Assembly: GCA_031265205.1 (NCBI GenBank)
Contig: JAISCZ010000091.1
Span: 1 to 64,000, forward strand
Origin: Deltaproteobacteria bacterium
GTDB lineage: Bacteria > Desulfobacterota > Desulfarculia > Adiutricales > Adiutricaceae
DNA length: 64,000 nt
Direction: 5' to 3'
The position numbers were made by a program, and so were the translations under genes. The notes below the pieces were generated by a model that did not search any database, was not told where the DNA came from, and worked only from the letters and a program-made list of their open reading frames with translations. This document shows positions 19,925 to 56,180 of the stretch, piece after piece; position 1 is the stretch's first letter; every line of letters begins with the position of its first letter.

Positions 19925-19959
19925 ATGATCGAGAATATAATGATTTTGACGCCTTTGGC

Positions 19960-20225
19960 GCTGTGGATGGCGCTCTCTTCGAGTCGGGCGTGTCTGGCGG
20001 ACGAAGGGGAAACGCCTGGGCCCGAAGGGGAGGCCCCAGGGACCGGCGGGGGATCTACTGGTTCCGGCGAGGAAGCCCCAGGGACCGGCGGGAAAATCCT
20101 TGAGTCCGAGTTGGAAACGTCTGGGCCCGAAGTGGAAGCCCCAGGGACCGGCGGGGGATCTACTGGTTCTGGCGAGGAAGCCTCTGGGCCCGGCGGGAAA
20201 GCCTCTGGGCCCGGCGGTGAGGCCT
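19960..20225 (+). repeat. Gly/Pro-coding minisatellite before the rpn-like gene
   Basis: Degenerate repeats containing gccccagggaccggcggg and tctactggttc encode GTGGGSTGSGEE and PGPEGEA-type sequence in the frame that leads into the Rpn-like gene. A hydrophobic stretch at 19925-20010 precedes it and would read as a signal peptide (ILTPLALWMALSSSRACLA). An exported leader makes no sense for an Rpn nuclease, so this may be a separate decayed gene fused by chance, or an unused open frame. Confidence 0.55.
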
Positions 20226-20260
20226 CTGGAGTTGAGGGCCGTCCTAGAGAAATCAATGAC

Positions 20261-21247
20261 ATGGCGTTTAAAAGCATGTTTGAAAAAGATTTCCGCGCCG
20301 CTTTGAGGATGTTAGGAGTCGAGCCCGCCCAAATAGAGAAAGCCACGCGGATTCCCACGGAATTTACGAATTTTCCCGTTCTGGCGATAACGCGGCGAGA
20401 CTGCGTGATCAGGTTGACCGATGGCTCTTATCTCATTATTGAGTTTCAGACCACCGCGGAAAAAGCCGATCTCTTTAGGATATATTCCTACGCCGCTTTA
20501 CTGTCGTTGCAGCATACCGAAAAAATCCTTGCGATCGGGTCAGGATCATGGTCGTCTTCTCTCGTGACGTCACGAAGCGTCTGCCTAGCCACTATCCTAA
20601 CGAAAGCGCCAAGGACAGAGATTGCGTGGGGTGCGATATCAAGTATGTCTACTTGGCCGCTGAGAATGGCTTGGACGAGCACCCCAAGAAGATCTGTCCC
20701 AAGATTAAGGACTGGAAGCCGGGAATGCCCGCCCCCGTCTTGCCGTCGTTCGGTATCGCCGACGTGTTTTTCGCTATGATGGGGGGGACCAAGAACAAAG
20801 ACCCTGATAGTCAAATCAAAATATTTGTCGCCATGGCGCATGGCGCGTAAACTGTCGCAAATAACTGGAAACGGGGATATAATAGCCATGGCTTTGCTTT
20901 GCGCGATGGCGCGGAGAGTTATCTTCACCGAAGACGAGAAAAAACAATATTGGGAGGATTTACAAAACATGAAATTAGATAACGTCTATTTTGCCGATAT
21001 GGTGACGGGCGGGCAATTTTCCTTCCTTCAGAAGGAGTTCGAGACCCTGTCCGCGGAGAACAAATCCAAGGACGGGACGATTGAGGACATGAGGAGAACC
21101 ATTGATGTCCTTGCCCAACGCGCCGTCTTGGCCCTGCGCGCCGATAACAAGAGCGTGGGGGAGATAAGCGAGATCTTGGAGATTTCTTCCTCCGAAGTCA
21201 CCAAAATCCTGGAACGCGTCGAAAGTGATAAAAAACGGTTTAGCTAG
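20261..21247 (+). pseudogene. Rpn/PD-(D/E)XK family gene with two frameshifts
   Basis: Three consecutive frames together spell one Rpn-family (PDDEXK_2, recombination-promoting nuclease/putative transposase) protein. Frame one (20261-20550) has ITRRDCVIRLTDGSYLIIEF and QTTAEKADLFRIYSYAALLS; the E-x-Q of the IIEFQT segment is the usual nuclease motif position. Frame two (20549-20847) has VVFSRDVTKRLPSHYPNES. Frame three (about 20843-21247) carries a coiled coil (LQKEFETLSAENKSKD) and the typical C-terminus NKSVGEISEILEISSSEV. Frame changes occur near 20550 and 20845. Such proteins are linked to RecA-independent recombination. The gene is either dead or carries sequencing errors. A second, more decayed copy follows at 21916. 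Confidence 0.75.
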
Positions 21248-23291
21248 GCCCGGGCGCGTCCATCGGATCGCCGGAGAGGCCCAAAAAGCCTTCGACGGGG
21301 CCTTACTTCTGACCTTGGGGGAGGGGCGGGCGCGACAAGACTCATGAGCGCCCCCTGGACTCGCCCGCGGCTCCTCGGGCGACGGCGCGACCCGTTCCGC
21401 GCCAAAGCCTCCTTACGGGCTCTCCGCGCGCGCCGCCTCCAGAAACTCGCGCTTTCCCGGCCCCCCTTATTAAGGCCCCAGCGGCGTTCTCTCCTCGTCG
21501 GCGCGCGCCGTGGAGTCTGGCCGAGAGCTGGCCCCAGGGCCCGTCGGGGTTCCTCTGGCCCACGCGGCCAGTCTTTCCTTCCCGGGTTACCGCAAAAGCG
21601 TTCGGACCAGGGGAACCTTGGACCGGGCGGCCCTACGGTCCTCAAGTTCTCGCGCGAGGGGCCCCCAGGTCAATTCAGTCCCCGTCCAAAGGAAAGCGAC
21701 CCCGAGGCCATTCTCCACGCCTTCGGAGCCGATCCCCAAGGTTTACGCGCGCTCTATTTTCCGCTCCCAAAGCGAGATTATCCGGAACAATTCCCCGCTC
21801 CCCCCGAGGGCGCGCGGCTGGCGCTTTTTCCCCTCTTTGGGCTCTTAACCCCGGCCCTTTCCTTGTCCTCCGGCAACGCCGGCGTGAACTCCCAAGCCGG
21901 CCCGGTTGGATTCCTTCAGGCTTGTCTTCTCGCGTGATGTCACGGAGAGCCCGCCCGGACGCTATCCTAACGGAAGCGACCAGGACAAAGAGCGCGTGGG
22001 GAGCGATATCAAGAATGTTTTCTTTGGCGTTCCGCGTGGCATGGACGGGTTCCCCCAAGAAGTTCCGCCCCCATGATCGAGGACTGGGAGACGGGAAGGC
22101 GCGCCACCGTCTCGCCCGCTTGATTTCTCCGACGCGTTTTCGCCATGATGGGGGGGAACCAAGAACAAAGACCCTGATAGGCGAATCAAAAAATTTGTCG
22201 CTAAGGCGCGCGAACTATCGCGAATGACCGGAAACGCGCCAATAAGAGCGCGCGGCATCGCTCCGCGCGCTGGCGCGGAGCCTCCCCCTCGCCAAAGAAG
22301 AGGAAAAATCAATATAGGAAGGGTTTCTGAAACATGATGTTAGACGAGGCTTATTTCGCGGACATGGTCACGGGCGGGAAATTTTCCCGCCTTCTGGCGG
22401 AGAACGAGGCCCTGTCCGCGGAGATCGAGGCCCTGTCCGCGGAGGGCGAGGCCCTGTCCGCGGAGATCGAGGACAAGAGGAGAACTATCAATGTCCTGGC
22501 CCTGCTCGTCGAAAACAAGAGCGTGGGGGAGATAAGCGAGATCTTGGAGATTTCTTCCTCCGAAGTCACCCAAATCCTGAAAGGCGTCGCCAGGCGCGAA
22601 AAACGGCCTTGCGAGGCCTTGGCGAGTCAATCTGACTAGCGGAGAGGCCGCGAAGCCTTCGCCTGGGCTTTTCTTCCGGCCCCGGGGGAGGGGCGGGCGC
22701 GCCAAAACGGACGAGCGCCCCCTGAGGCTCGCTCGCGGCTCCGGGGGCGACGGGGAGACGCGCCCAAGCCGAGCCTCCTCGCGGGCGTCCCCGCGCGCCG
22801 CTTCCAGAAGCTCGCGCTTTCCCGGCCTCCCCGTAAGACCCAGCGGCGCGCTCTCCCCCGCGGGGCGCGTGGCGGCCAGCCTGCCGAGAGCCGGCTCCAG
22901 TGGCTCGTCGGCGTTCCCTTGGCCCACGCCGCCAGTCTCGCCTTCCCGGGTAACTTCACAAACGTCCGGACCCGGGCGCCAATGGGCGGACCTTGGGCTG
23001 GGGCGGTTCCACCTTCTTCAACCTCTCGCGGGAGGGGCTCCCCGCGTCAATCCAGCGCCCACCTTTGCAAAAGCGACTCCGCGGCCATTTTCCGCGCCGT
23101 CGAGGCCACCTGCCTCCCCAAGGCTTTGGTCACGCTATGTTTCGCTCCAAGGTTGAGGCCATCCGGGACAATTTCCCGTTCCCCCCGGGAGCGAGCGACT
23201 GGCGCCCAATCCCCTCTTTGGGCTCTCGCTCCGGCCCTCTCCATGACTTCCGCCGTCGCCAACATGAACTCCCATAAGCCGGCGCGCTTGG
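20549..23291 (+). repeat. Tandem duplication of about 1.37 kb
   Basis: Unit one (about 20549-21915) and unit two (about 21916-23291) align over the 3' part of the Rpn gene and about 670 bp of following DNA. Landmarks in both units are gcgccccctg (21348 and 22715), cagaaactcgcgctttcccgg against cagaagctcgcgctttcccgg, and aactcccaagccgg against aactcccataagccgg. Divergence is high, so the event is not recent. The shared downstream segment encodes nothing I recognise in either copy. Confidence 0.7.
21916..22639 (+). pseudogene. Second, more decayed Rpn-family copy
   Basis: DNA from 21916 aligns with the preceding copy from about 20549 (for example gatatcaagaatgtttt against gatatcaagtatgtct), but the N-terminal third is missing and frames are broken. 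The 3' end (22334-22639) is still open and encodes LDEAYFADMVTGGKFSRLLA, then three to four heptad-like repeats of EALSAEI, and the conserved ending VGEISEILEISSSEVTQIL. The repeat expansion is absent from the first copy. It is a remnant of a tandem duplication and probably has no function. Confidence 0.7.
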
Positions 23292-24736: not shown

Positions 24737-24764
24737 TAAAGTATCCGGGAAAAATTCCCGATAA
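24737..24764 (+). promoter_or_regulatory. Sigma-28 (FliA) promoter of flagellin 1
   Basis: TAAA at 24737 and CCCGATAA at 24757-24764, spaced 16 nt, match the FliA consensus TAAA-N15-GCCGATAA. The same pair occurs before the other two flagellin genes. Confidence 0.88.
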
Positions 24765-24767
24765 GAG

Positions 24768-24788
24768 AGCTGAAGGAAGAGTTCAGCT
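24768..24788 (+). promoter_or_regulatory. Conserved dyad after flagellin 1 promoter
   Basis: AGCTGAA, 7-nt loop, TTCAGCT forms a perfect 7-bp stem three bases after the -10 element. The same 21-nt geometry recurs before all three flagellin genes, with paired changes in the second. Confidence 0.65.
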
Positions 24789-24879
24789 TTGGCTGACGCG
24801 GTTCTTTACGGATATCTTCAGTCAGATCCCTTGAGTTTAACCCGGGCAAGGACGCCCAATCGCTATCATGGAGGACAAG

Positions 24880-26649
24880 ATGGCTCTCATTATCAATCAT
24901 AATATGCCGGCTATGAAGGCGGCGAGATTCTTAGGGAATTCCTACGATAAACTTTCGAAAAGCATTGATAGGCTCTCGTCGGGTCTGCGGATCAACAGCG
25001 CCGCCGACGACGCGGCGGGCTTGGCTATCAGGGAGATGATGCGGGCGGATATCGCGACCACCGCCCAGGGTATCCGCAACGCCTCCGACGCCATTAGCCT
25101 CATCCAAACGGCCGACGGCGCTTTGGCCGTCATCGACGAAAAGCTCTCGCGGATGAAGGAGTTGGCCGAACAGGCGGCCACCGGCACCTATACCACGGTG
25201 CAGCGCCAAATTATCAATTCCGAGTACCAGGCCATGGCCGCGGAAATCGATCGCATCGCCGCCGCGACCAATTTCAACGGCATAAGGCTGCTGGACGGAT
25301 CCACCAACGCTTTAAATAACGGTCAGGGAATCAGGATTCATTTCGGAGTCGGCAATAGCGCCGCCGAGGATTATTATTATATCCATCTGGATAATACCAT
25401 GGCCACGAATCCGAATGGCTTAAGAATCGGGGGAGACGGCCAAAACGATATCTGGAGCGCGGGCCCGTACGGAGATCAGCCTGGGGGTTGCTGCGGCGGA
25501 ACTATCTCCAGCCTTAGCTCGGCCGCGGTAGATAATTCCACCGGCGGATTCATGTATGGGTATAATTACGACGACAATAGCCTTACTGACGAACAGCTTT
25601 TCAACAGCCGGTATTTGGCCGGCAAGTACGGCGCCGCTAGAAGCGCCACTTCGGCGACTTATCAGGCGATAATTAATAACGTGAATCAGGGAACTCAAAG
25701 CAGGGTCATCGTGGATATCTCGGCGAATATGGACGCCGCGCCGACCAATAGCTCGTTGGTGGCGATCTGTTTGGACAACGACGAGGTGTTCTATTTCGGC
25801 TCCGCCGAAGTGGTGGCGTTGCTACCAGGATTAACTAATAAAAGAGTTAATGTTGGAGTCGACGCCACTGGCACGGCTCAGATGTTGGCTTCGGCGATTA
25901 ACAACACCAATTCTTCCAACTATTGGGCCTTTTCCTCGGGGACCGGTCGGGTGGTTATTTTTAGGAAAGATGGGGGAGACAACAATAATTTAATTATTGA
26001 GGAGTACTCCAATAGCGCGGCTGAGGCCGCGAAGATTACTTACACCAATGTCACCACGGGAATTAGCAGCCAATCGGCGAACATGTTTTCTCTCGGAGGG
26101 GAGCATTGGGGGGTTTTACAAGCCAATTCGCTCGCTGGAGGTGGCTACGGATTAGCGCTCATTGGGAGGGATATTGGCGCCAGTCGCGATTTAGCCATAG
26201 CGGGCGGAACAGATGGTTACGACACCGATTGGTCCGCAAAATTATCCGCCGCTGGCATAACGGCAGGCGAAAGATTTATTGGCAATTTGAAGCGATCGTC
26301 ATTTACCGAAGTTCAAAACGCGAATAATGGGGATTGGGATGGCGCGGAGATAAGAACCCAAGAAGCGGCGCAGCGTTCCCTGGTCGCCCTAAACGCCGCC
26401 ATAGAGCGCAAGGACATTATCCGGGCGAACTTGGGGGCTACTCAAAACAGGCTTGAGGGGACAATTACGAATCTGACTATTCAGGTGGAAAATCTCCAGG
26501 CCGCGGAAAGCCGAATTTCCGACGTTGACGTGGCGTCAGAAATGACCGAGTTTACCAAGAACAATATCTTGGCTCAGGCGGCCACCTCTATGCTCGCGCA
26601 AGCGAACAGCTTAGGTGGCTTGGCACTAACTCTCATCAGGGGGGCGTAG
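24880..26649 (+). CDS. fliC: Flagellin, copy 1
   Basis: Filament protein of about 589 residues, exported by the flagellar type III apparatus. The N-terminal D0/D1 domain begins MALIINHNMPAMKAARFLG and contains KLSKSIDRLSSGLRINSAAD and LSRMKELAEQAATGTYTT. The C-terminal half-domain contains RLEGTITNLTIQVENLQAAE and the final LAQANSLGGLALTLIRGA. A 350-residue central region unlike classic flagellins would form the exposed D2/D3 part. It holds a vicinal cysteine pair (GGCCGG, about 204-205) and a third cysteine in VAICLDNDEVF, both unusual for a flagellin. I chose the ATG at 24880 because GGAGG stands 5 nt before it; an in-frame ATG at 24868 lacks a site. It is first of three tandem paralogues, each with its own promoter and hairpin. 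Confidence 0.95.
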   Translation: MALIINHNMPAMKAARFLGNSYDKLSKSIDRLSSGLRINSAADDAAGLAIREMMRADIATTAQGIRNASDAISLIQTADGALAVIDEKLSRMKELAEQAATGTYTTVQRQIINSEYQAMAAEIDRIAAATNFNGIRLLDGSTNALNNGQGIRIHFGVGNSAAEDYYYIHLDNTMATNPNGLRIGGDGQNDIWSAGPYGDQPGGCCGGTISSLSSAAVDNSTGGFMYGYNYDDNSLTDEQLFNSRYLAGKYGAARSATSATYQAIINNVNQGTQSRVIVDISANMDAAPTNSSLVAICLDNDEVFYFGSAEVVALLPGLTNKRVNVGVDATGTAQMLASAINNTNSSNYWAFSSGTGRVVIFRKDGGDNNNLIIEEYSNSAAEAAKITYTNVTTGISSQSANMFSLGGEHWGVLQANSLAGGGYGLALIGRDIGASRDLAIAGGTDGYDTDWSAKLSAAGITAGERFIGNLKRSSFTEVQNANNGDWDGAEIRTQEAAQRSLVALNAAIERKDIIRANLGATQNRLEGTITNLTIQVENLQAAESRISDVDVASEMTEFTKNNILAQAATSMLAQANSLGGLALTLIRGA

Positions 26650-26676
26650 GATTTAAACTCCGAAAGGGTATTGTTA

Positions 26677-26712
26677 AAATGAAAATAGCGCCGCGAGGCG
26701 CTATTTTCATTT
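26677..26712 (+). terminator. Hairpin terminator after flagellin 1
   Basis: A 16-bp perfect stem (AAATGAAAATAGCGCC, loop GCGA, complement ending in ATTTTCATTT) lies 28 nt after the stop codon. It is almost identical to the hairpin after flagellin 2. The A/T outer stem makes it usable from either strand. Confidence 0.85.
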
Positions 26713-27350
26713 GAGGGCGCTCCCGGCGCGAACGATGGATTAGGCCGAGATTCGCCCGCGGGGTTGACGGCTTGAAGCGCCGTGGTCAGTAAGGGGAAAG
26801 CCAGGATGCCCATTGGAAATTTATTAGAAGAGCGCCCTCGGGCCGGCGAGGGGAAATCGCGTAAGAAGTTTCCGCGCGGACGGTCTCGTTTTTCCAGCCG
26901 AAGCGCGCGCTATCCGCGCGGGGGCGTGGGTCAGATGGAGGCTGGTTTATGGGAGAAGGCTCGTCAGTGGATGGACACTGTTTTAGAGCGTAACGTCCCT
27001 CAGGTCTCCGAACTCAGGCCATGGGATGGCTTGAGCCAACGCGTATTAGGAAAGCCTCTTCGTCTATTTAAAAATTGTTTCTGAAAAGAGAGCGTATCCG
27101 CTCCCGGGCGGGGCGTTTCCAGGGGGCGGTGGCGGGACTCGCTCAAACGCTCTGGGCGGGTGGGCCAGTCCCTGGGCTTCTCTATTTTTTCACGCGCGCG
27201 GACGCTTCGCGTCCTCGCCCCAATTGAGGCAAAAGCTAGCGTTTAAGGGGGAATTCGCGCGTGGACATGGAGTAGGAGAGGAGGTTAAAACGCGCGCGAA
27301 CTTCACGCTTTTCTCCCGTTATTTTGGCGAAAAGCGCGATTTAATGTGAG
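26713..27350. other. Spacer between flagellin 1 and 2
   Basis: About 640 bp with no convincing gene. A 100-codon frame at 26782 is open but has no recognisable domain or ribosome site. Confidence 0.5.
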
Positions 27351-27357
27351 GTTTTAT

Positions 27358-27384
27358 TAAAGTTTTAAAACGCGAGCCCGATAA
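27358..27384 (+). promoter_or_regulatory. Sigma-28 (FliA) promoter of flagellin 2
   Basis: TAAAGTTTT at 27358 and CCCGATAA at 27377-27384 with a 15-nt spacer, the closest of the three to the FliA consensus. Confidence 0.9.
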
Positions 27385-27387
27385 GAA

Positions 27388-27408
27388 AGTTAATAGAGCG
27401 GTTTAGCT
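27388..27408 (+). promoter_or_regulatory. Conserved dyad after flagellin 2 promoter
   Basis: AGTTAA and TTAGCT pair over 6 bp. Relative to copy 1 a G-C pair has become A-T and a C-G pair has become T-G, so pairing is kept while the sequence changed. Confidence 0.6.
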
Positions 27409-27499
27409 TAGGCTGACGCGCCGCGTCACGGAAATCCGCGGCAAGATATAATTGTTAAGAAATGGGCAAGGACGCCCAAGCGCGCTCATGGAGGACAAT

Positions 27500-29260
27500 A
27501 TGGCTCTTATCATCAATCACAACATGCCGGCGATGAAAGCCGCGCGGTTTTTGGGAACCTCTTACGATAAGCTCTCCAAAAGCATCGATAGGCTTTCCTC
27601 TGGCCTGCGGATCAACAGCGCCGCCGACGACGCGGCGGGTCTGGCCATCAGGGAGATGATGCGGGCGGATATCGCGACCACCGCCCAAGGCATCCGCAAC
27701 GCCTCCGACGCCATTAGCCTCATCCAGACGGCCGACGGAGCTTTGGCCGTTATCGATGAAAAGCTCTCGCGGATGAAGGAGTTGGCCGAACAGGCGGCCA
27801 CCGGCACTTATACCACGGTGCAGCGCCAAATTATCAATTCCGAGTACCAGGCCATGGCCGCGGAAATCGATCGCATCGCCGCCGCGACCAACTTTAACGG
27901 CATAAGGCTTTTGGACGGATCCACCAACGCTTTAAATAACGGTCAGGGAATCAGGATTCATTTCGGGGTCGGCAATAACGCCGCCGAGGATTATTATTAT
28001 ATCCATCTTGATAATACCATGGCCACGAATCCAAATGGCTTAAGAGTTGGCGGAGACGGCCAAAACGATATCTGGAGCGCGGGACCGTACGGAGACGAGC
28101 CTGGCGGTTGCTGCGGCGGCTCCATTACCAGCCTTAGCTCCGCCGCTCTTGCCACCGGCTCCCCCGAAGCTGGGTTCATGTATGGCTATAATTATGACGA
28201 CAACAGCTTAACTGACGGGGATTTGTTCAACAGCAGATATCTCGCCGGTAAATATGGAGCGGCGAGAGGGGCGGTCACCGCGACGTATCAGCAGATAATT
28301 GATAACGTCAACCAGGGTACTCAGAGCAGAGTAGTCGTGGATGTTGCCGGCGCCGTGACCGCTGGGGCATTGGTCGCGGTTTGTTTGGGCGAAGACGAGG
28401 TTTACCGTTTTGGGGCGGCCGCGGCTGGCGTATACCCTAACCTGGCCAGTAAAAGAGTTAACACGCAAGTTGACGCCGCCAATAACGCCACGGCCTTGGC
28501 GTGCGCTATTAATTCAGTGACTTCTTCCAATTATTGGGCGTTTGTTTCAGGGGGAACCCGAGTCGTTATTTTTCGAAAGGACGGAGGGGACAACAATACC
28601 GTAATGGTCGAGGAATTTTCCAATAGCGCCACGGAAGCCGCGAAAGTTACCTACGTTAACGCCAGCACTGGAATTATGAGCCAATCGGCGAATACGTTCA
28701 GTCTGGGAGGAGAGAATTGGGGAATTATGGAAGCCAACTCGCTCAGGGGCGGCGGATATGGATTGGCGCTTATTGGAAGGGATATTGGCGCGAGTCGCGA
28801 TTTGGCGATAGCGGGCGGCTCTGAAGCTTATGATGCCGCTTGGTCAGCCAAATTAAACGCGGCGGGTATCACCACTGGAACAATGTTCGCCACGGGAATG
28901 CGGCGAACCGCCTTCGTGGAGGTCCAGAACGCTAATAACGGCGATTGGGATGGCGCGGAGATAAGAACCCAGGAAGCGGCGCAGCGTTCCCTGGTCGCCC
29001 TGAACGCCGCCATCGAGAGGAAAGACGTTATCAGGGCTAACTTGGGCGCCACGCAGAACCGCTTGGAGGGGACAATAACTAACTTGACCATCCAGGTGGA
29101 GAACCTTCAGGCAGCGGAAAGTCGAATATCTGACGTTGACGTGGCGTCCGAGATGACCGAGTTTACCAAGAACAATATCTTGGCCCAAGCCGCTACCTCG
29201 ATGCTCGCTCAGGCGAATAGCCTTGGCGGGCTGGCCTTAACCCTTATCAGGGGGGTCTGA
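27500..29260 (+). CDS. fliC: Flagellin, copy 2
   Basis: A flagellin of about 586 residues, nearly identical to copy 1 over the first 200 and last 120 residues but clearly diverged in the middle (for example VDVAGAVTAGALVAVCLGED). It keeps the GGCCGG pair and the cysteine of VAVCLGEDEVYRF, and adds one in ALACAINSVT. The start is the ATG at 27500, with GGAGG 5 nt upstream; the frame is open to a TTG at 27452, but that part is unrelated to flagellin. Identical ends with a diverged middle suggest gene conversion between copies or selection for surface variation. The promoter and terminator are its own. Confidence 0.95.
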   Translation: MALIINHNMPAMKAARFLGTSYDKLSKSIDRLSSGLRINSAADDAAGLAIREMMRADIATTAQGIRNASDAISLIQTADGALAVIDEKLSRMKELAEQAATGTYTTVQRQIINSEYQAMAAEIDRIAAATNFNGIRLLDGSTNALNNGQGIRIHFGVGNNAAEDYYYIHLDNTMATNPNGLRVGGDGQNDIWSAGPYGDEPGGCCGGSITSLSSAALATGSPEAGFMYGYNYDDNSLTDGDLFNSRYLAGKYGAARGAVTATYQQIIDNVNQGTQSRVVVDVAGAVTAGALVAVCLGEDEVYRFGAAAAGVYPNLASKRVNTQVDAANNATALACAINSVTSSNYWAFVSGGTRVVIFRKDGGDNNTVMVEEFSNSATEAAKVTYVNASTGIMSQSANTFSLGGENWGIMEANSLRGGGYGLALIGRDIGASRDLAIAGGSEAYDAAWSAKLNAAGITTGTMFATGMRRTAFVEVQNANNGDWDGAEIRTQEAAQRSLVALNAAIERKDVIRANLGATQNRLEGTITNLTIQVENLQAAESRISDVDVASEMTEFTKNNILAQAATSMLAQANSLGGLALTLIRGV

Positions 29261-29281
29261 TTTTTAGAATTCCTTTTTGGG

Positions 29282-29317
29282 AAATGAAAATAGCGCCGCG
29301 AGGCGCTATTTTCATTT
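29282..29317 (+). terminator. Hairpin terminator after flagellin 2
   Basis: The same 16-bp stem and GCGA loop as after flagellin 1 (AAATGAAAATAGCGCC and its complement), 21 nt after the stop. Confidence 0.85.
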
Positions 29318-29835
29318 GAGGCCAGGGGGAGCGCGCCAGAGCGGCGGATCGTTTTGACGCCGCTGGAGACCGCCGATTTCGCGCTTCGCGATGAATCCAT
29401 TCGCGGAGGAGGATGGGGACTGGCGGGGACTGGCGGGGCTTGCCGGGGATGGCAAGGGAGGCGGCGCGTCCGTTCGGCAAAGGGCTGGACGGGGCTAACG
29501 GTAAGGGCGGTGGCGCGTTAGCGTTCACGGCGTGGTATGGCCAAGGCCATAGCGTCTGGGAAGGCCGCTCCCCTTTTTGGTCTTGCCGCGCCTCTTTTAG
29601 AGCGAGTCTCGCCTCTTTGTGAGCAGGCCGAGCCCTTTTGAGAGCGGAAATATCCCTTCCCGCCAACTGATAGGCTGGTAGAGGGGAAGAGATTTTGAGG
29701 GAACGCGCGCTATCCCCCCCCCCTCGCGAGGGTGGTCCCGCGCTTTTTTTTGCTAGAGCCAGGCTGGGAATCTTGGCTTTTAAGGGAGGTTTTCGCGAAG
29801 GAATTTAAGAAGATAAAAATAATTTACTTGAGATT
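29318..29835. other. Spacer between flagellin 2 and 3
   Basis: About 520 bp with no recognisable gene in any frame. Its last part leads into the third sigma-28 promoter. Confidence 0.5.
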
Positions 29836-29839
29836 TACG

Positions 29840-29867
29840 TAAAGTAATGGAGCCAAGTCGCCGATAA
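29840..29867 (+). promoter_or_regulatory. Sigma-28 (FliA) promoter of flagellin 3
   Basis: TAAA at 29840 and an exact GCCGATAA at 29860-29867 with a 16-nt spacer. Confidence 0.88.
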
Positions 29868-29870
29868 GAA

Positions 29871-29891
29871 AGTTGAAGGAATGGTTCAGCT
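29871..29891 (+). promoter_or_regulatory. Conserved dyad after flagellin 3 promoter
   Basis: AGTTGAA and TTCAGCT pair over 7 bp with one G-T pair; same position and loop length as in the other two copies. Confidence 0.6.
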
Positions 29892-29978
29892 TCGCCTGAC
29901 AAACCCCTTCGCCTATATCTTCAGTCGGTTCTCAGTTTAGGGCTGGCGCGGAAAAGCCACGCGAGCGGGGAGGACGTT

Positions 29979-31757
29979 ATGGCTCTCATGATAAATCACA
30001 ATTTACCGGCTATGAAGGCGGCGCGATTTTTGGCCGGTTCCTACGATAAGCTTTCCAAAAGCATTGAAAGGCTCTCCTCGGGCCTTAGGATCAATACCGC
30101 CGGCGACGACGCGGCGGGGCTCGCCGTCAGGGAAATGGCGCGGGCGGATATCGCGACCGCCGCGCAGGGCGTTCGCAACGCCGCGGACGCCATCAGTCTC
30201 ATTCAGACGGCTGATGGCGCCCTCGCGGTTATCGACGCGAAACTCATCCGCATGAAAGAATTGGCCGAGCAGGCCGCCACCGGAACCTACACCGCCACGC
30301 AGCGCGAAATTATCAATTCCGAGTACCAGGCCATGGCTTCGGAAATCGACAGAATCGCGGCCTCGGCCACTTTTAACGGCGTAAAACTCTTGGATGGCTC
30401 AATCAATACCCTGAATTCCGGGCAAGGAATCAGAATCCATTTCGGGAACGGCGACAGCGCCGCCGAGGATTATTATTACATTAAAACGGATAATACCATG
30501 GCGACGAACCCAAACGGGCTAAGGGTGGGAGGCGACGGGAAAAACGACATCTGGAGCGCGGGACCGTATCTGGACGCGCTCGGAGGTTGCTGCGGGGGCG
30601 CTATCGAAAGCCTCGGCGCCACCGCGGCGCCTAACGCCACTGCCGGGTTTATGTACGGATACAATTACGACGACGACAGTTTAAATGACTCTCAGTTGTT
30701 TAACAGCAAATATTTGGCCGGTAAATATGGAGCGGCCGCGGGGGAAGGCGCGGCGACTTATCAGCAGATAATCGATAACGTCAATTTGGGGACTCAGAGC
30801 AGGGTAATAGTGGATTTTGAGGATAACGTTAACTTAAGCGGAACATCGGGTTTTGTGGCTATCTGTTTGGATAGCGACGAAGTCTTCTATTTTGGCTCCT
30901 CGGCCAACGCGACTCCTACAATGCCAAGCTTTAGCTCTAAAAGGGTCAGGGTTAAGGTGGCCGACGCCGGATCCGCTGGAGCTTTGGCCACCGCGATTAA
31001 CGGCGCTCTTTCCTCAAATTATTGGGCGTACGCCTCCGGTGGCGATCGCGTCGTTATTTTTAGGAAAGACGGGGGAAATAACAACGGTTTAGTGATTGAG
31101 GAAATTTACAAGGGCATGAGCCTCACGCAGGCCAACTATCTGACCTATGTCAACGCAGTCACTGGGAAAAGCGGCCAATCGGCTAACTCTTTCAGTTTAG
31201 GCGGGGAAAAGTGGGGAAAATTGGCGGCCGCCCAACAGCGTGGCGGCGGCTACTCGGTGGCGCTTTTGGGGCGGGACATTGGCGACAAGCGCGATTTAGC
31301 CATCGCGGGGGGAACGGAGAGCTACGACGACGATTGGAGCGACAAGCTCTCCGCCGCTGGGCTGGCCACCGTGGCCGCGAGGCTCGCGCCAAATTTGCGG
31401 CGCTCCTCTTTTACGGAGGTCCAGAACGCCAAGGACGGGGATTGGGACGGCGCGGAAATCAGGACCCAAGATTCGGCTCGTCGCGCCTTGCTCGCTCTCA
31501 GTAGGGCCATTGAAAGCAAAGACGTTATAAGGGCCGGTTTGGGGGCGACCCAGAATAGGTTGGAGGGGACGATGAGGAGCCTAACCGTCCAAATCGAAAA
31601 CCTCCAGGCCGCGGAAAGCCGCATATCCGACGTTGACGTGGCCTGGGAGATGACCGAGTTCACCAAGAATAATATCTTGGCCCAAGCGGCCACCTCCATG
31701 CTCGCCCAAGCGAACAGCCTCGGCGGTTTAGCCTTAACCCTGATTAAAGGGACGTAG
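29979..31757 (+). CDS. fliC: Flagellin, copy 3
   Basis: A 592-residue flagellin, the most diverged of the three (MALMINHNLPAMKAARFLAG, KLIRMKELAEQAATGTYTAT), with the same architecture and the C-terminus LAQANSLGGLALTLIKGT. The central vicinal cysteines (LGGCCGG) and the cysteine of VAICLDSDEVFYFG are conserved. GGGGAGG lies just before the ATG. Divergence across its whole length suggests an older duplicate, and conserved termini show it can still assemble. Its own FliA promoter and a related hairpin frame it, so the ratio of the three flagellins can be set gene by gene. Confidence 0.95.
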   Translation: MALMINHNLPAMKAARFLAGSYDKLSKSIERLSSGLRINTAGDDAAGLAVREMARADIATAAQGVRNAADAISLIQTADGALAVIDAKLIRMKELAEQAATGTYTATQREIINSEYQAMASEIDRIAASATFNGVKLLDGSINTLNSGQGIRIHFGNGDSAAEDYYYIKTDNTMATNPNGLRVGGDGKNDIWSAGPYLDALGGCCGGAIESLGATAAPNATAGFMYGYNYDDDSLNDSQLFNSKYLAGKYGAAAGEGAATYQQIIDNVNLGTQSRVIVDFEDNVNLSGTSGFVAICLDSDEVFYFGSSANATPTMPSFSSKRVRVKVADAGSAGALATAINGALSSNYWAYASGGDRVVIFRKDGGNNNGLVIEEIYKGMSLTQANYLTYVNAVTGKSGQSANSFSLGGEKWGKLAAAQQRGGGYSVALLGRDIGDKRDLAIAGGTESYDDDWSDKLSAAGLATVAARLAPNLRRSSFTEVQNAKDGDWDGAEIRTQDSARRALLALSRAIESKDVIRAGLGATQNRLEGTMRSLTVQIENLQAAESRISDVDVAWEMTEFTKNNILAQAATSMLAQANSLGGLALTLIKGT

Positions 31758-31787: not shown

Positions 31788-31817
31788 CGAAAATGGCGCC
31801 GCGCGGCGCCATTTTCG
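31788..31817 (+). terminator. Hairpin terminator after flagellin 3
   Basis: A 13-bp perfect stem (CGAAAATGGCGCC, loop GCGC, complement) 30 nt after the stop. The stem differs from the other two flagellin hairpins by compensated changes. It may also stop transcription of the convergent dotL gene, which ends at 31899. Confidence 0.8.
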
Positions 31818-31898: not shown

Positions 31899-33725
31899 TC
31901 ACAAGGTCACGGTCGCGCGTCCTTGGGCGCCGCGCTCCCGGAGTTTCTTTTGGAAGTCGCGCGTGGGTTCCATGGAAAGGAGCCGGGGAACCCGCATGAC
32001 CGCGCCTTTGACGCTGGGCCCCGCGTGAAAAAGGCGCGCCCGCGCCAGACGGCCTCCCAAGAGGCAGTGGGCCTCGCCCTCGGTCTGCTCCATCAGATCG
32101 CGCAGGTCCACGATGGGGCGATTTATGGGGCGCGCCGCGAAATTGTCCGTCCATTTGCCTTCCAGCCCCAGTCCGTCGCCTTTTAAGGCGAAGCCCGTGG
32201 TCTCCAGCGCCGTCTCTTCCCCGGAAAGGCCCTTTAAAAGCCGCCAGGTCTTTTCCGACTCGGCGAGCTTCATAAAGATTTTAAGGTTGGTGTTGGCGAC
32301 AATCTGCTGGGCCCCCTTGGGATCGGCCTCGACGAGGCCGGCGTAATCCTGGCTGGCCACCACGGTGGCCATGCCCAGGCCTCTACCTTGGGTGAGGAGG
32401 ATCTCAAAGCCCGGGGTCACGATGGCCGCGTACTCGTCGACGACGCTTAAAAATGGTCCCGTCCCCTGAAAATGGATGGGAAGGGATCCTAAAACGTCCT
32501 TTTCCTCGCCCTCGATGTTGAGGCCCAAGCCCACCGCGGCGGCGGCCCGGATGGAGGAAAGGGTGATTTTCCCTAAGCTCGCGAGTTCCATGGGGCTTTT
32601 TTCCATGGAGGGGAGGAGGGTTAAGAGGATCCTCCGGTTGAGAACCACGTCCTGGAAATCCACCTCCCCGCCCTCGACCCCATAGATATGCTCATAGACG
32701 TCAGTGAGGCTGGATAGGGCTTTCCCGAAATAGCTCTGGGCGTAGCCGTATTGCTCGTAGAAAGAGGGCATCTGCTTGCCTTCCGGAGGGTTTTTGACGT
32801 AATTGCAGTTGAGTAGGGCCGCTTCCAGGGAATCGCGGGCCATCTCGGAAATATGGGGGTGGCTTAAGAGCTTGACGCATTTGTCGGCGTTGAGACACTC
32901 CCGGATCTTTTTGGCCGAAAGGGTCAGGATCCCCTGGTCCCGCAGCTCCGTGAGGACGTACATGAGCCCCGAAATGAGGGCCATGGCCTTGTCGGCGAAA
33001 ATGGAATTGCTCCCCTGTTTGCCGGGAGGCGTCAGGGAGCTTAAAAGCTGGGCCAAGCTGTCCGCCCCGCCCAAAGAGAAGGGATTGTTGGTGTTGGTGA
33101 GGCGTTTGGTGGGGTCGGTGGGCGGGTTGCTGGCGTAGTTTAAGACGCGGAAATCGTCCTCGCGCCCCAGGGAGCGGGCCATCTGCCAAATTTCCATATT
33201 GAGCTGGGCCTCGGCCTTGGGGTCGATATAGAAAAGCCCCGAGCCCGTGGCCAGGCTGTTGAAGGCCAAAGAAGCCAAGGCGGCGGTCTTGCCTGAGCCC
33301 GTGGTGCCCAAAAGGAGGGCGTGGGTGAGGATATCCCTCTTGTCCAACCATAGCTCTTGGCCGCTGGAGGCCTCGTTGCCCAAAAAGAAAACGCCCCCCG
33401 CGGGGCGGAAATGGAGATGCCCTGGTCCCGGGGAATTGGGGTCAAGTTTGCCCGCGGATTGGGGAAGGCGAAAGGGGAGCCCCGTGTTGGCCGTTAAAAG
33501 GGCGAAGGCCAAAACAACGGCCGCCGACAGCGCGAAGGCCACAAAGGCCAAGGACGGAGCCAAGAAGCCCGCGAGAGCGAAAAAGGCCAGCAAAAAAAGA
33601 ACGTTGCCCTTGACGGCCAAAAAGCGGAGGAGCTTTTCGGGTCCCGCGCTGGCGTCCCTTAAAAGCTTGCGGCGCTCGTAACTTTCTCCGGGCTGAAGGC
33701 CCTTAAGCTTGGGAAAAGGGGACAT
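31899..33725 (-). CDS. dotL: Type IVB coupling ATPase DotL/TrbC-like
   Basis: This 608-residue type IV coupling protein is the inner-membrane ATPase that brings substrate to a Dot/Icm or IncI-type conjugation machine. Two hydrophobic segments near 38-85 anchor it. Walker A is ALLLGTTGSGKTAALA (about 134-149), followed by FYIDPKAEAQLNMEIWQMAR; Walker B is FLSVVDEYAAIV (about 397-408); a later ASQD is the conserved glutamine-type motif. Legionella DotL is about 780 residues with a long C-terminal tail that binds IcmS-IcmW and LvgA. That tail is absent here, so the protein resembles conjugative TrbC more. It is the last gene of the secretion locus in transcription order and ends about 80 bp from the flagellin 3 hairpin. 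Confidence 0.88.
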   Translation of the reverse strand: MSPFPKLKGLQPGESYERRKLLRDASAGPEKLLRFLAVKGNVLFLLAFFALAGFLAPSLAFVAFALSAAVVLAFALLTANTGLPFRLPQSAGKLDPNSPGPGHLHFRPAGGVFFLGNEASSGQELWLDKRDILTHALLLGTTGSGKTAALASLAFNSLATGSGLFYIDPKAEAQLNMEIWQMARSLGREDDFRVLNYASNPPTDPTKRLTNTNNPFSLGGADSLAQLLSSLTPPGKQGSNSIFADKAMALISGLMYVLTELRDQGILTLSAKKIRECLNADKCVKLLSHPHISEMARDSLEAALLNCNYVKNPPEGKQMPSFYEQYGYAQSYFGKALSSLTDVYEHIYGVEGGEVDFQDVVLNRRILLTLLPSMEKSPMELASLGKITLSSIRAAAAVGLGLNIEGEEKDVLGSLPIHFQGTGPFLSVVDEYAAIVTPGFEILLTQGRGLGMATVVASQDYAGLVEADPKGAQQIVANTNLKIFMKLAESEKTWRLLKGLSGEETALETTGFALKGDGLGLEGKWTDNFAARPINRPIVDLRDLMEQTEGEAHCLLGGRLARARLFHAGPSVKGAVMRVPRLLSMEPTRDFQKKLRERGAQGRATVTL

Positions 33726-34221
33726 TTATCGCGCTCGCGCGAGCCGGCGTTGGCCCGCGGGAAAAGGGCCCAAGAAAAGGCCCGGAGGTGATGAGGCGGA
33801 GGCGGAGGAGCCGGAGGAGGCGGAGGCGGAGGAGGAAGCGGAAGACGAAAAGGAGGAAGAGGAAGAGTCGGAAGAGTAAAAGGAAGGCGAAAAGGAAGAT
33901 GAGGAAAAGGAAGACGAGGAAGAGGAAAAGGAAGACGAAAAGGAAGATGAGGAAAAGGAAGATGAGGAAAAAGAAGACGAAAAAGAGGAAGAGGCGGGGA
34001 AAGCGGATATTTTGTTCAAAAAAGCCGCTGGAAAGAGAGGGAGGCCCGGGGGCGTCCGACTCTCTCCGGCGGCGAATTTCTGGAAAAGCGCGCGAATCCA
34101 AGGCGGGGCGCGGCGAGTTTTCCCGGCCCAGGGCTCGTCCTTAGAGTTCGGCTAAAGGCTCACCCCAAGAGCGCGGCTAAGTGCCCAACCTAAGAGTTCG
34201 GCCTATGGCTAACCCCTCGCC
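33726..34221. other. Spacer upstream of dotL, no gene
   Basis: About 500 bp between the adhesin stop and the dotL start. Apart from the purine tract listed separately, only short direct repeats (tagagttcggctaaaggct-like, near 34141-34210) are seen. Confidence 0.55.
33788..33999 (+). repeat. Purine-rich microsatellite upstream of dotL
   Basis: About 210 bp of almost pure A and G, with units such as gaggaaaaggaaga and gacgag. Frames on either strand give only Lys/Arg/Glu- or Ser/Phe/Leu-type low complexity. It lies 60 bp upstream of dotL and could form triplex DNA or slip. Confidence 0.85.
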
Positions 34222-37200
34222 TTACTGGCACTCTTTAAAGCTCTGGGGATAAGGCCCTAAAAGGGGGATATCCGCGTCCCCCAAGAGGGCGTGGTAATAG
34301 GGATCGCTCAAATACCCCGTTTGGTCAGTTCTGTCGAAGAAAATGTTCCCGGCTATGGAACCCCACCCGTCGGAGCCGGAGATTTCCCCTGGGACCGAGA
34401 GCCCAAGGCCGCTTATCTGCAAGGGAGCGTCGCGGAGGAGTTCCCCGAGGTACTTAAAGGTCATCGTGGCCGCGTAATTGACGCAGGGCTTGATGACGAG
34501 GCCGTTGCCGAGCCCTGGGTCGTCCAGGACGGGGGCGGGAATCAGCTCCATCTCCATGGACAGGGCGAAGCCGTGGACCCTCACTTCCAGGTCGAGGGGG
34601 TTGGAGACTAAGGAGCCCACTGAGGCCGTAAGGGTAATGGGTCCCTTGGGAGTTAAGGCTTTGAGGGAATCGGCCGTCACCGCGCCGCCGGAGGCGACGG
34701 TCAAGGCGCCCACTAGCCCCTGAAGGCGCGCGGGGTCATGGGCGAAGGTCGCGGCGAGTCCTTCGGGAAGCGGGTAGCCGTTGTAGCGGAGGGTAAAAAC
34801 CCGCCTCGCGCCGCTTAGAAAATCTAAGTATGGCTCCGTTGTCGCCAAAGAAAGAGAGCCGACGGCGCTTACGGCCAGGGAAACGTCGTTGGCGTCCCGG
34901 CCTCCGACTTGCCCGCCTATGGAAAGAGGCCCCGTGGGCTTTAAGGCGACAAGGCCCGCGACGGCGACTTTTCCGCCCGCGCCCGTGACGGCGTTCGCGG
35001 GAAGGCCCGTAAAGTCGCCTTCCGCCGCCTTAAAAGTGACGCTCACGCCGGCGGGGAGCGCGACCCCTTTATAGGAAAAGGAGAAAACTATCTCCGTGGG
35101 AGTTAAGAACTCCAAGCTGTCCCTGTTCGCTTCAAGGGTAAAGTTCCCGAGAGCCGACGCGGTGAAAGTCACGCCATTGGAATACTCGCCGCCCACCTTG
35201 GCCCGGACGGGAGAAAGACTCCCTCCCTTTAAGGCGGTAAGGCCAGAGGCTTTGATCTTCCCGCCTGGCGCGGATACGGCGCTTTCAGGCAGTCCCGCGA
35301 AATCCCCGTTCGCGGCGTGAAAACTGGTCACGAGGCCCGCCGCCAAGGGCTCGCCGTTGAGTTCCAAGCTGAAGTCCACCTCCTGGGCCGCCAAGTATTC
35401 CAAAGAGAGGGGCGAGGCTTTAAGGCTTAAGGCGTAGAGGAGGGGCACGGTAAATTCTCCCTCTTCCCCCACGGGAGGCGTGGCGACTATCGTGACCTCG
35501 CTCTCGCTGAGATCGCCCGGGAGGAGCTTAATTCGGATATAGCCCTCGCCGTCGGAGACGAAAATCTCGCGGGGCGCGTCTCCCTCCGGGTCCGCCACCG
35601 GGATTCCGGGGCTTTGGGTATTGAAGGCGACGCTGACGTTGGCGGCGGGCAGATCGTTTAAGTCAACGACCCGAAAGACGTGGACGTTTTGGCCCTCAGG
35701 CCCGATATAGATAACCCGGTAGCCCTCTTCCTGGGTGGGTGGGGGAGACGCCGGCTCGGCGGTAAAGGTTAAAGGGAAGCTCTTCTGGGCGTCTCCCGCG
35801 CTTACGGACACGGTTCCCGCCGTCACGCCCGGCGCGGGAACGAAGAGGACGGAGATAAGGCCGTCGCCGTCGGTCGCGAAGACGCTCTGGAGGTGGTTTA
35901 GCTCCGGATGGCGGATCGCGAAGCCGGACGTTTCCGCCCTTAAAAGGACCTTTTCGTCTTTCCAGGGGACGTTAAGGCTGTTCGTCACCCGGAAATAATA
36001 GACATTGCCCTCGCGCCGGGCCAAAGATATCACGTAGAGCTTTTCCGCCCGGTAATCCAAGGGCATGTCATAGCGCCGCTCCACGAAATCAAAGCGGCTC
36101 TCGACTGGCAGCGGCCCCTTGTTTTGGCTTTCCGTCCCCAGGCGGAGCGGATTGAAAAAGACGGCGACCTCCCTTCCTTTCTCAATCTTCCCGATCCTTT
36201 CGGTATACTCGAAAGAGACGGTGGGAGTCGGGGTAAATCTCGCCCCCAGGGCCCAAACGCCGTTGGAGCGCGCGGCGCCCGCTTCGGGCTGGTCGAAAAG
36301 CCCGGCGCCGCCCACGTGGGCGCCCCGGAAGTTTTCGTAGGCCAAGGAAAAAGAGAGTTTGTCGCTCCAGGGCCAATAGCCCCGGGCCCGAAGATCAAAG
36401 CCCCGCGCGGGCCTTTCCAGGGCCCCAGGGTAGTCCCGGGATTCTTTCCAGTGGCTGATGGGGTAATAGAGGTTGGAGGAGAGCCTTAAGAGCTTATAGA
36501 AGAGTTCCAGGCCTCCCCCGAGGCGGGCGTGGCGGCGGATAAGGTCCCAGTCCCCAAAAATATTGAGCCCAAATCCCATTTCCGGCGCGGAGAAGAAGCG
36601 CGTCCCCAAGCCCAGGTGGGCGATAAAGGCGGAGTTCCCGCGATAGCGCGCCCCGGTTTGGACAAAAGCGGTGACCTTTTCGCCGTCGTGGAAGGGATAG
36701 AGAAAATCAGCGGCGGCCGTCAGCGCGAAGTTGGGGCCGACGGCGAGACTGACCCGGGAGTTGCCTTGGGGGGCGAGTTTCGCCGCGATTTGGGCGGATA
36801 TTTTTTGAAGCCCAAGGTTCGCCCCGCGCTGGATAAGGCTCTCCCCGCCGGCGCTGGAAGCGGCGCTTAAAAGCGCGCCAAGCCGCTCCAACTGGTCAGA
36901 GGAAGGATTGGCGGGGGGCGCCATTTCAGGCTCAGGAGAAGGCGCGCGCGGAAAGAGCCTTCCCGCGACCGGCTCTCCCTCGCCTATCTGGGCCTCCAGA
37001 AGCGCCCCTTCGTCCAAGACCGTAAGACCCCGGATTAAAACGGAGCCGGAGGAGTCCGCCGTCCGCCAGTCTTCTCGTAGATTGGGAAGGGAGGGGGACT
37101 TGCGAAAGCGCGCCCGGGTTCCAGCGGGGACGGGCGCTCCGTTCGCGGTGAAAAAGACGCGGGCGTCAAAGGAGCGCTTTTGGGGGTCAAAGTCCCGGGG

Positions 37201-37833
37201 AACGGCCTGGGCCCGAAGGCCGTATTGGGCCGCGCGGACTTCCACGAGCGCGCTCGCCTCCTTTCCGGCGACAATCGCCGCGAGGGGCCAATGGCCGGGA
37301 GAGTCGGGGGGAATAAGGTCGCGAAGGACAATTTTCCCGCCCTCGCCCGTCTCGCGGGGGATATCCCGTAAATTAGGCCACCGCGGCGAGGGGACAAACC
37401 TCAATATGGTCCCCGCCGGAGCGAAACCCTGGCCCTCGCGGAGGACCAGGGCCAGATCTCCCGGCGTTCCCGCCACGAGGGACTCTCCCGCGGCGCTGAG
37501 GGCGTAGAGGCCGTCGCCGCGCGCGCCATTGGCGAAAACGCCTGGGGACGGCGAAGAACCCAAGGAGGTCGAGGAACCCAAGGAGGGCGAGGAACCCAAA
37601 GAACCCAGAGAGTCATGGCCCCCGTTGGCGGCCGAAACCTTAGGCGCGTCCGAGTTTTGGAGACGGTTTTTGGCGATCGCGCGCGAAAGAAGGATGGGAC
37701 GACTATCAAGATCCGCGAGCGCGCTCTCGTCGCGGGAAACCTGGGGGCTATTGCCGCCGCAGCCGCTTAATCCCAAGATAAAACTAAAAGCCAGAAGAAA
37801 AACGCAAAGTTCGCTCAAAGCGACGCGCCGCAT
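34222..37833 (-). CDS. Inverse autotransporter adhesin (intimin/invasin type) with lipoprotein signal
   Basis: An outer-membrane adhesin of about 1203 residues. I start at the ATG at 37833 (GAGGG upstream) because it gives a compact lipoprotein signal ending in GLSGCGG; an earlier start at 37881 would put 16 residues before it. After a linker with two Ig-like repeats, a 12-strand barrel of the intimin/invasin (IAT_beta) family spans roughly 370-640. It is recognisable by FGLNIFGDWDLIRRHARLGG and by ERPARGFDLRARGYWPW, the family hallmark. Several Ig-like (Big) domains follow, with repeated blocks such as LTALKGGSLSP and LVALKPTGPLS. Classical members carry LysM and no lipid anchor, so this arrangement is unusual. 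It lies inside the type IVB gene array, which suggests contact with a recipient or host cell. Confidence 0.85.
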   Translation of the reverse strand: MRRVALSELCVFLLAFSFILGLSGCGGNSPQVSRDESALADLDSRPILLSRAIAKNRLQNSDAPKVSAANGGHDSLGSLGSSPSLGSSTSLGSSPSPGVFANGARGDGLYALSAAGESLVAGTPGDLALVLREGQGFAPAGTILRFVPSPRWPNLRDIPRETGEGGKIVLRDLIPPDSPGHWPLAAIVAGKEASALVEVRAAQYGLRAQAVPRDFDPQKRSFDARVFFTANGAPVPAGTRARFRKSPSLPNLREDWRTADSSGSVLIRGLTVLDEGALLEAQIGEGEPVAGRLFPRAPSPEPEMAPPANPSSDQLERLGALLSAASSAGGESLIQRGANLGLQKISAQIAAKLAPQGNSRVSLAVGPNFALTAAADFLYPFHDGEKVTAFVQTGARYRGNSAFIAHLGLGTRFFSAPEMGFGLNIFGDWDLIRRHARLGGGLELFYKLLRLSSNLYYPISHWKESRDYPGALERPARGFDLRARGYWPWSDKLSFSLAYENFRGAHVGGAGLFDQPEAGAARSNGVWALGARFTPTPTVSFEYTERIGKIEKGREVAVFFNPLRLGTESQNKGPLPVESRFDFVERRYDMPLDYRAEKLYVISLARREGNVYYFRVTNSLNVPWKDEKVLLRAETSGFAIRHPELNHLQSVFATDGDGLISVLFVPAPGVTAGTVSVSAGDAQKSFPLTFTAEPASPPPTQEEGYRVIYIGPEGQNVHVFRVVDLNDLPAANVSVAFNTQSPGIPVADPEGDAPREIFVSDGEGYIRIKLLPGDLSESEVTIVATPPVGEEGEFTVPLLYALSLKASPLSLEYLAAQEVDFSLELNGEPLAAGLVTSFHAANGDFAGLPESAVSAPGGKIKASGLTALKGGSLSPVRAKVGGEYSNGVTFTASALGNFTLEANRDSLEFLTPTEIVFSFSYKGVALPAGVSVTFKAAEGDFTGLPANAVTGAGGKVAVAGLVALKPTGPLSIGGQVGGRDANDVSLAVSAVGSLSLATTEPYLDFLSGARRVFTLRYNGYPLPEGLAATFAHDPARLQGLVGALTVASGGAVTADSLKALTPKGPITLTASVGSLVSNPLDLEVRVHGFALSMEMELIPAPVLDDPGLGNGLVIKPCVNYAATMTFKYLGELLRDAPLQISGLGLSVPGEISGSDGWGSIAGNIFFDRTDQTGYLSDPYYHALLGDADIPLLGPYPQSFKECQ

Positions 37834-38263
37834 AAAAACCCTCGCGAAACAAGGCAGCGTCTTGGAAAAAGACGCGCTCAAAGGGAAATAGCCCTGAAGC
37901 GGATATAGCCGTTGAAAAAATATGGGTTTAAGGAAATGACTCGCGCCAAAACGGCGGAGGCGATCTTGGGTGGGACGGTATGGCTCAAGATGGCGCTCCT
38001 CTCTATAAAAGACGAAAAAGGCGATTGCCCGCCCAGGCGAGGCTTGGCGCGGGCGGAATGGAAAAAGGCGGAAAGCCCGTCATGGAAGGCCGGAAAAGGC
38101 CGGAATCGGCGGCCCAGGGTTTCATCGCGAACGCGCCGGGAAGATTGACGCGCGGGTCCGCGACTAAAGGCGCGGCGCTCCGCGTCCAAGGGCGCGGCGC
38201 TCCGCGCGTCCAATGGCGCGGCGCTCCGCGCGTCCAAGGGCGCGGCGCCGAGCCGTCGCGCGG
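37834..38263. other. Spacer with 22-24-bp repeats
   Basis: About 430 bp with no gene. At 38167-38250 a GC-rich unit, gcgcggcgctccgcg(cg)tccaa, is repeated three and a half times. Confidence 0.6.
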
Positions 38264-55935: not shown

Positions 55936-55949
55936 AGGGAAAGTCGCTG

Positions 55950-56180
55950 GGGAAAGTCCGGGGGAAAGTCCCTCGAGGAAGCCCCGGGGGGAAAGTCCCT
56001 GCGGGAAGTCTCAGGGGGAAGTCCTTGCGGGAAGTCTCAGGGGGAAGTCCTTGCGGGAAGTCTCAGGGGGAAGTCCCTTGAGGAAGCCTCGGGGGAAAGT
56101 CCCTGCGGGAAGTCTCAGGGGGGAAATCCCAGGAGGTAGTCTCGGGAGAGAGTCCCGGGGGGAAGTCTCGCGGAGAAACT
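55950..56180 (+). repeat. 26-bp tandem repeat upstream of dotG
   Basis: Units of the type gggggaagtccttgcgggaa plus gtctca repeat about nine times with growing divergence at both ends. They begin inside the DNA that follows duplicated segment 1. Confidence 0.85.

Follow-up and report, generated by a model that had tools for sequence, protein, structure and literature searches.

Sequence analysis of tandem flagellin leaders in a Deltaproteobacteria bacterium suggests a transcription start within a promoter-proximal dyad and CsrA-FliW control of two copies

Three flagellin genes lie in tandem on the forward strand of the window (the whole 64,000-nucleotide stretch analyzed, part of contig C103 in the 4.57-Mb draft genome of a Deltaproteobacteria bacterium): copy 1 at 24880 to 26649, copy 2 at 27500 to 29260, and copy 3 at 29979 to 31757. 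The genome holds six flagellins overall. A preliminary description of this DNA had drawn a 21-bp dyad behind each of the three promoters (copy 1, AGCTGAAGGAAGAGTTCAGCT, 24768 to 24788; copy 2, AGTTAATAGAGCGGTTTAGCT, 27388 to 27408; copy 3, AGTTGAAGGAATGGTTCAGCT, 29871 to 29891) and had proposed that it serves as an operator or as a 5' hairpin protecting the mRNA. Our analysis leads to another account, to which we assign a probability of about 0.68: transcription would begin within the dyad's left arm, a 5' stem-loop would form from the start site onward, and the leaders of copies 1 and 2 would be of the CsrA-FliW type, while the dyad as drawn would arise mainly as a side effect of a repeated CTGA/TCAG word. 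The best-supported function of the interval would be control of copies 1 and 2 by CsrA and FliW; the mechanism is known, and the member is new.

The named close relatives of the genome are Deltaproteobacteria metagenome-assembled genomes, Candidatus Adiutrix (placed in class Desulfarculia, family Ca. Adiutricaceae), and strain Smac51, all of which we take to be of termite-gut origin. Comparisons across species used 99 flagellin upstream regions, six from the genome itself and 93 from relatives G001 to G040, the latter being the listed matches with the N terminus present and enough upstream room. Matches lacking the N terminus, matches at contig ends, unlisted matches, and Smac51 match 538488 (an apparent duplicate) were left out. 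Start-site, folding, covariation, and arm tests were run on the 84 of 99 regions with a sigma-28 promoter score of at least 11.5, and the other 15 were dropped. Flagellin classes were set manually according to the protein N terminus; class A, the class of the window's copies, mostly begins with MALIINHN and has 21 leaders. Class sizes differ between analyses (A 21, B 23, C 19, D 6, and rest 30 in the hexaloop count below), since some of 15 unclassed regions were later put into classes for the arm-swap and site-spacing analyses.

RESULTS

The probable transcription start lies within the dyad's left arm

The sigma-28 pattern (TAAAGT, spacer, CCGATAA) is matched exactly upstream of all three copies, at 24737 to 24764, 27358 to 27384, and 29840 to 29867 on the forward strand, which also carries all the leader features given below. 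Only five exact sites exist genome-wide. With two mismatches allowed, the genome-wide search returned 140 sites versus 121 in the control and was of no use for locating other flagellar promoters.

A pyrimidine-purine (YR) step occupies bases 7 and 8 after GATAA in 82 of the 84 flagellin leaders, the next-best step reaching 25. Both of its bases are variable, T or C followed by G or A, which is the pattern expected of a start site, and YRA at bases 7 to 9 is the motif common to all flagellin classes. Judging from this motif, base 8 after GATAA is the most likely transcription start, i.e., 24772 in copy 1, 27392 in copy 2, and 29875 in copy 3, so that the dyad of copy 1 would span -4 to +17. The dyad does cover the likely start, as had been claimed, and that start would lie within the left arm.

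With a start at base 8, the first A of GATAA falls at position -11, which the relevant portion of PMC12781870 gives as the position of the near-universal flipped adenine in -10 elements. The sigma-28 start of Escherichia coli aer is mapped 6 bp after the octamer in the part of PMC2859248 that deals with it, because of which our start could be off by one or two bases. A start at base 4, which would be needed to include all of the left arm, seems unlikely. In the open-licence literature, no paper was found that joins sigma28, GCCGATAA, and a transcription start site.

Leaders fold in excess from the probable start site onward

The suggestion that a 5' mRNA structure was worth asking about proved sound, but the arms that find support begin at the start site. 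Relative to dinucleotide shuffles, bases 8 to 52 are more stably folded in classes A to D (mean z of -1.09, -1.59, -1.24, and -1.80, respectively), and bases 36 to 80 show no folding excess in the same classes (about 0). The originally drawn hairpin alone (bases 4 to 25) gives a z of -0.65 in class A and of 0.06 to 0.33 in classes B, C, and D. When bases 8 to 20 were paired with bases 24 to 60, native arms beat arms swapped between leaders in class B (p<0.0005), in class C (p of 0.0095), and in class A (p of 0.005 by duplex energy and 0.05 by stem). Strong arm covariation is limited to class B, where it holds in thinned sets; in 12 of 23 folds of that class, +1 is the very first base of the predicted stem.

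In the window, folding from the inferred start predicts stem-loops at 24773 to 24807 (copy 1; core UCAGC-UUUG-GCUGA), 27398 to 27424 (copy 2), and 29875 to 29910 (copy 3). The predicted partner of the dyad's right arm is the next GCUGA in copies 1 and 2 and CUGA in copy 3, and the outer stems differ among the three copies. The stem-loop would most likely guard the 5' end of the mRNA. No Rfam family matched the window at the gathering cut-off.

5' stem-loops of the ompA type stabilize mRNA. The structure predicted here resembles that type in its position, at the 5' terminus of an abundant mRNA or a few nucleotides from it, and, in class B, in keeping its fold as the sequence changes; for the window's class the evidence is modest, and any effect on mRNA life is putative. 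As a separate observation, class B leaders (MGLV or MGIV N terminus; e.g., L150, L186, and L142) have a long, strongly covarying stem-loop that runs from +1.

Copies 1 and 2 carry a covarying CsrA-type hairpin and a second site on the Shine-Dalgarno sequence

About 70 to 80 nt downstream, and absent from the preliminary description, lies the element with the best support, a hairpin of the CsrA type: GGGC-AAGGAC-GCCC in copy 1 (24844 to 24857) and UGGGC-AAGGAC-GCCCA in copy 2 (27463 to 27478). A second CsrA-type site follows 20 nt from the first, on the Shine-Dalgarno sequence, at 24866 to 24875 in copy 1 (UC-AUGGAG-GA) and at 27486 to 27495 in copy 2. The form GGGC-ANGGAC-GCCC occurs in copies 1 and 2 and in the flagellin at position 70311 of the same contig.

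Among the 99 regions, an ANGGAN hexaloop closed by a stem of at least four pairs was found in 32 versus 1.35 expected, distributed as 10/21 in class A, 5/6 in class D, 0/23 in class B, 0/19 in class C, and 17/30 in the rest. ANGGA alone, 33 to 75 nt upstream of the flagellin match, is present in 17 of the 21 class A and all six class D leaders. The bases flanking ANGGA pair in 73 to 78% of cases at the four inner positions, versus 28 to 34% for ANGGA elsewhere in the regions. Changes on both sides occur at all six pairs of the stem, and its covariation (0.299 versus 0.110 in shuffles, reached in 0 of 500, and above all slides) was computed on 41 of 51 ANGGA rows, nine class B or C rows and a second L181 match having been removed after inspection. 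In the 21 class A and class D leaders having both sites, the second lies 19 to 26 nt downstream of the first.

In class B, ANGGA is seldom seen at the Shine-Dalgarno sequence (3/24). At four loci (L108, L109, L110, and L118), GGA was seen by eye between inverted arms just before the Shine-Dalgarno sequence. In leaders of Smac51 and of the Adiutrix type (L179 to L182, L188 to L191, and L199 to L202), the CsrA-type sites stand 30 to 45 nt apart, often with an intervening hairpin. Across the 16 leaders with this wider distance, 13 have such a hairpin, with 6.1 expected in shuffles, and the effective site distance via the hairpin is 16 to 20 nt in 10 of the 16; three leaders, which belong to other families of the order, remain at 26 to 32, and three are without the hairpin. 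Since G+C-rich spacers favor hairpins anyway, this excess is merely a lead. Leaders of this CsrA type were not found described in the literature searched (open-licence papers, including those on CsrA, flagellin, and Desulfovibrio).

csrA and fliW occur together, and the leaders resemble known CsrA targets

The genome has one csrA and one fliW, adjoining on contig C132 and both above their family cut-offs. Of 60 relatives, 48 have both genes, and in the other 12 neither was found. The seven flagellin-less genomes of genus g17 are all without csrA and fliW.

One close likeness is to Campylobacter jejuni flaA, for which the flaA sections of Dugar et al. 2016 (PMC4894983) describe two CANGGANG-like hexaloops 21 nt apart, with 18 nt being optimal. 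Here as there, two ANGGA hexaloop sites are found, with the second on the ribosome-binding site and compensatory changes in the stems, and the site distance of 20 nt in copies 1 and 2 compares with 21 nt in flaA; in that system, FliW is the antagonist. As those sections present it, the flaA leader differs in being 45 nt long with two adjacent stem-loops, whereas the present leaders run 104 to 107 nt from the inferred start, have a separate 5' structure, and close the second site with a 2-bp stem. CsrA binding is demonstrated for flaA in that source, and here it is predicted from sequence. Bacillus subtilis hag, in the account of it within PMC7652899, likewise has two CsrA sites, one of them on the Shine-Dalgarno sequence, and FliW relieves repression there. 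Unlike the present case, it belongs to another phylum and is a single gene, whereas here several paralogues have differing leader types.

Several observations weigh against this account

The start sites were read from sequence, and the mapped E. coli aer start is nearer to the promoter than base 8. RNAalifold on the class A and class B alignments gives no consensus 5' structure, and whole leaders fold no better than usual. In class A, bases 1 to 7 also pair with bases 24 to 60 beyond swapped arms (p of 0.008 to 0.009 at n=19; 0.03 to 0.08 at n=10), an excess that is unexpected for an untranscribed stretch. The copy 3 leader (29868 to 29978) is without either CsrA-type site, from which it appears that this copy may escape CsrA control. 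The 12-mer core of the hairpin is not rare genome-wide (13 versus 10 in the reversed control). Finally, G030 (77% complete) has such leaders, yet csrA and fliW were not found in it.

The dyad is real but was over-read

The dyad stands three bases past the -10 GATAA in each copy, just as described. An equal loop length had also been claimed: the total length and the center are indeed identical, but the arms as written (7, 6, and 7 nt) leave loops of 7, 9, and 7 nt. As for the changes said to preserve pairing, over seven pair positions in three copies one pair is changed on both sides (G-C to A-T in copy 2), one is changed on a single side to G-T/G-U (copies 2 and 3), and one is lost in copy 2. 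G-T is a mismatch on DNA.

Since a perfect 7/7 dyad (copy 1 only) arises by chance in 6% of dinucleotide shuffles of the whole copy 1 leader and in 4% within its first 30 nt, and a 6/7 dyad with G-U within the first 30 nt in 81 to 96%, none of the copies stands out when taken singly. Because the three leaders are paralogous (pairwise identity 80/116, 74/115, and 68/115), their dyads are not independent. Chance and common descent may thus leave the dyad without a function of its own, a reading that we consider rather unlikely, although the weak covariation among relatives also favors it. Weak covariation is seen in class A (n=21), where 65.3% of dyad cells pair versus 61.2% with arms shuffled between species (16/500 shuffles reach it) and where the covariation score is 0.186 versus 0.146 in shuffles (35/500 reach it), with the register slid by -1 also giving 0.186; shuffling the arms costs little. 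Against chance stands the register itself: only 19 to 48% of cells pair in slid registers, so that the class A consensus is palindromic and not random in these 21 leaders. This reading overlaps our preferred account, in which the words of the dyad hold other roles.

A covarying RNA hairpin in the dyad was tried and rejected. In the fixed register, p was 0.02 with 21 leaders, 0.09 without the genome's own three, and 0.13 with one leader per genome; in a free register with wider arms, it was 0.26 and 0.20. A tight-arm free-register test gave p of 0.01 to 0.03 in class A at n=19 and 0.06 to 0.16 at n=10, with nothing comparable in classes B and C (p of 0.4 to 0.99). All of these dyad covariation p values are uncorrected for the number of tests.

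The palindromic consensus and the ease with which arms are exchanged between species, as half-sites should be, are what one would expect of a DNA operator, in which a dimeric regulator on AGCTGA-N8-TCAGCT over the start site blocks or tunes the promoter. We find this improbable, and the operator is weakly supported overall: its left half is accounted for by the start-site motif of all classes, and the C to T change in copies 2 and 3 breaks the DNA symmetry. Nor did the search for the dyad upstream of other flagellar genes reveal any beyond three of the genome's six flagellins, other flagellar operons not having been taken one by one. The pattern AGYTRAN{7,9}TYAGCT has nine strand matches in 4.57 Mb (one palindrome counted twice) versus four in the reversed control; three match places are the flagellin dyads, and the remainder are at the control level. 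The dyad is also absent from the other flagellin classes.

In copies 1 and 3, the AAGGA within the loop of the dyad might be a further CsrA site at the mRNA 5' end, given that GAAGGAAG follows the start in most class C and many class B leaders and that ANGGA is the CsrA core in the relevant parts of PMC4894983 and PMC7652899. This is quite unlikely, however, as the GGA is inconstant (class B has, for example, GAAGAAAG, and copy 2 has TAGAG), unlike that of the downstream hairpin, and is predicted to be paired in copy 1.

Very improbable, and likewise weakly supported, is the hairpin as drawn, in which the mRNA begins at base 4 or earlier and is capped and protected by the full 7-bp stem: the stem folds given an early start, the class A tight-arm test and the nearer aer start speak for it, and base 4 is A in 21/21 class A leaders, but such a start would leave very little room after the -10 element, the YR step points to bases 7 and 8, and the folding is slightly above shuffles in class A only. 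With a start at base 8, the RNA contains three of the seven pairs (GAA/UUC), and the full hairpin could not form.

Neighboring features in the window

Terminator-like, nearly alike hairpins follow the flagellins at 26681 to 26708, 29286 to 29313, and 31788 to 31817. The sequence is GAAAATAGCGCC-GCGA-GGCGCTATTTTC after copies 1 and 2 and GAAAATGGCGCC-GCGC-GGCGCCATTTTC after copy 3; one pair (A-T to G-C) is truly compensated. Just downstream, on the reverse strand, are a relative of TraG/TraD-like coupling proteins (31899 to 33725) and an inverse-autotransporter-type protein of 1219 aa (34222 to 37881). Imperfect long tandem repeats, several of them purine-rich, are frequent in the window (8019 to 8274, 33782 to 33994, 40438 to 40926, 45073 to 45319, and 55937 to 56178). 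Upstream of the flagellins lie two broken, mutually similar groups of open reading frames (19925 to 21247 and 21922 to 22639) that by eye we take to resemble PD-(D/E)XK transposase-type proteins; a Pfam scan of two reading frames from these groups gave no match.

DISCUSSION

Computation shows the promoters, the start-site motif, the excess 5' folding, the covarying CsrA-type hairpin, its spacing to the second site, and the csrA-fliW pair; the start site itself, CsrA binding, release by FliW, and mRNA protection are inferred. In the proposed mechanism, sigma-28 RNA polymerase would start each flagellin mRNA inside the left arm of the dyad, which would mostly be the start-site motif YRA at bases 7 to 9 after GATAA. 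The right arm (UCAGC) would be transcribed and pair with the next GCUGA to form the core of a 5' stem-loop, which would most likely protect the transcript's 5' end. In the leaders of copies 1 and 2, a strong hairpin would present ANGGAN as a six-base loop, with a weak GGA site on the Shine-Dalgarno sequence 20 nt on; a CsrA dimer would bridge both sites and block ribosomes. Flagellin export would free FliW, which would remove CsrA and lift the block.

Extending this to the family is more tentative, and we regard it as possible rather than probable. Flagellin mRNAs of this family of gut bacteria may hold two separable RNA modules, a +1 stem-loop and a CsrA-bridging site pair, with paralogues sorted by leader type into CsrA-controlled and CsrA-free. 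On the same tentative footing, the fold of the stem-loop may be kept while its sequence drifts, and the site distance may be under selection, with spacer hairpins shortening it.

Altogether, the analysis corrects a plausible sequence reading, a hairpin drawn across a start site, and would bring the flagellins of uncultured bacteria from termite guts under a translational switch that is already known. The spacer hairpins would offer a natural test of the idea that one CsrA dimer spans two sites at a fixed distance. Should the leader types hold up, they would indicate which of the flagellin paralogues are coupled to the assembly checkpoint of FliW and CsrA.

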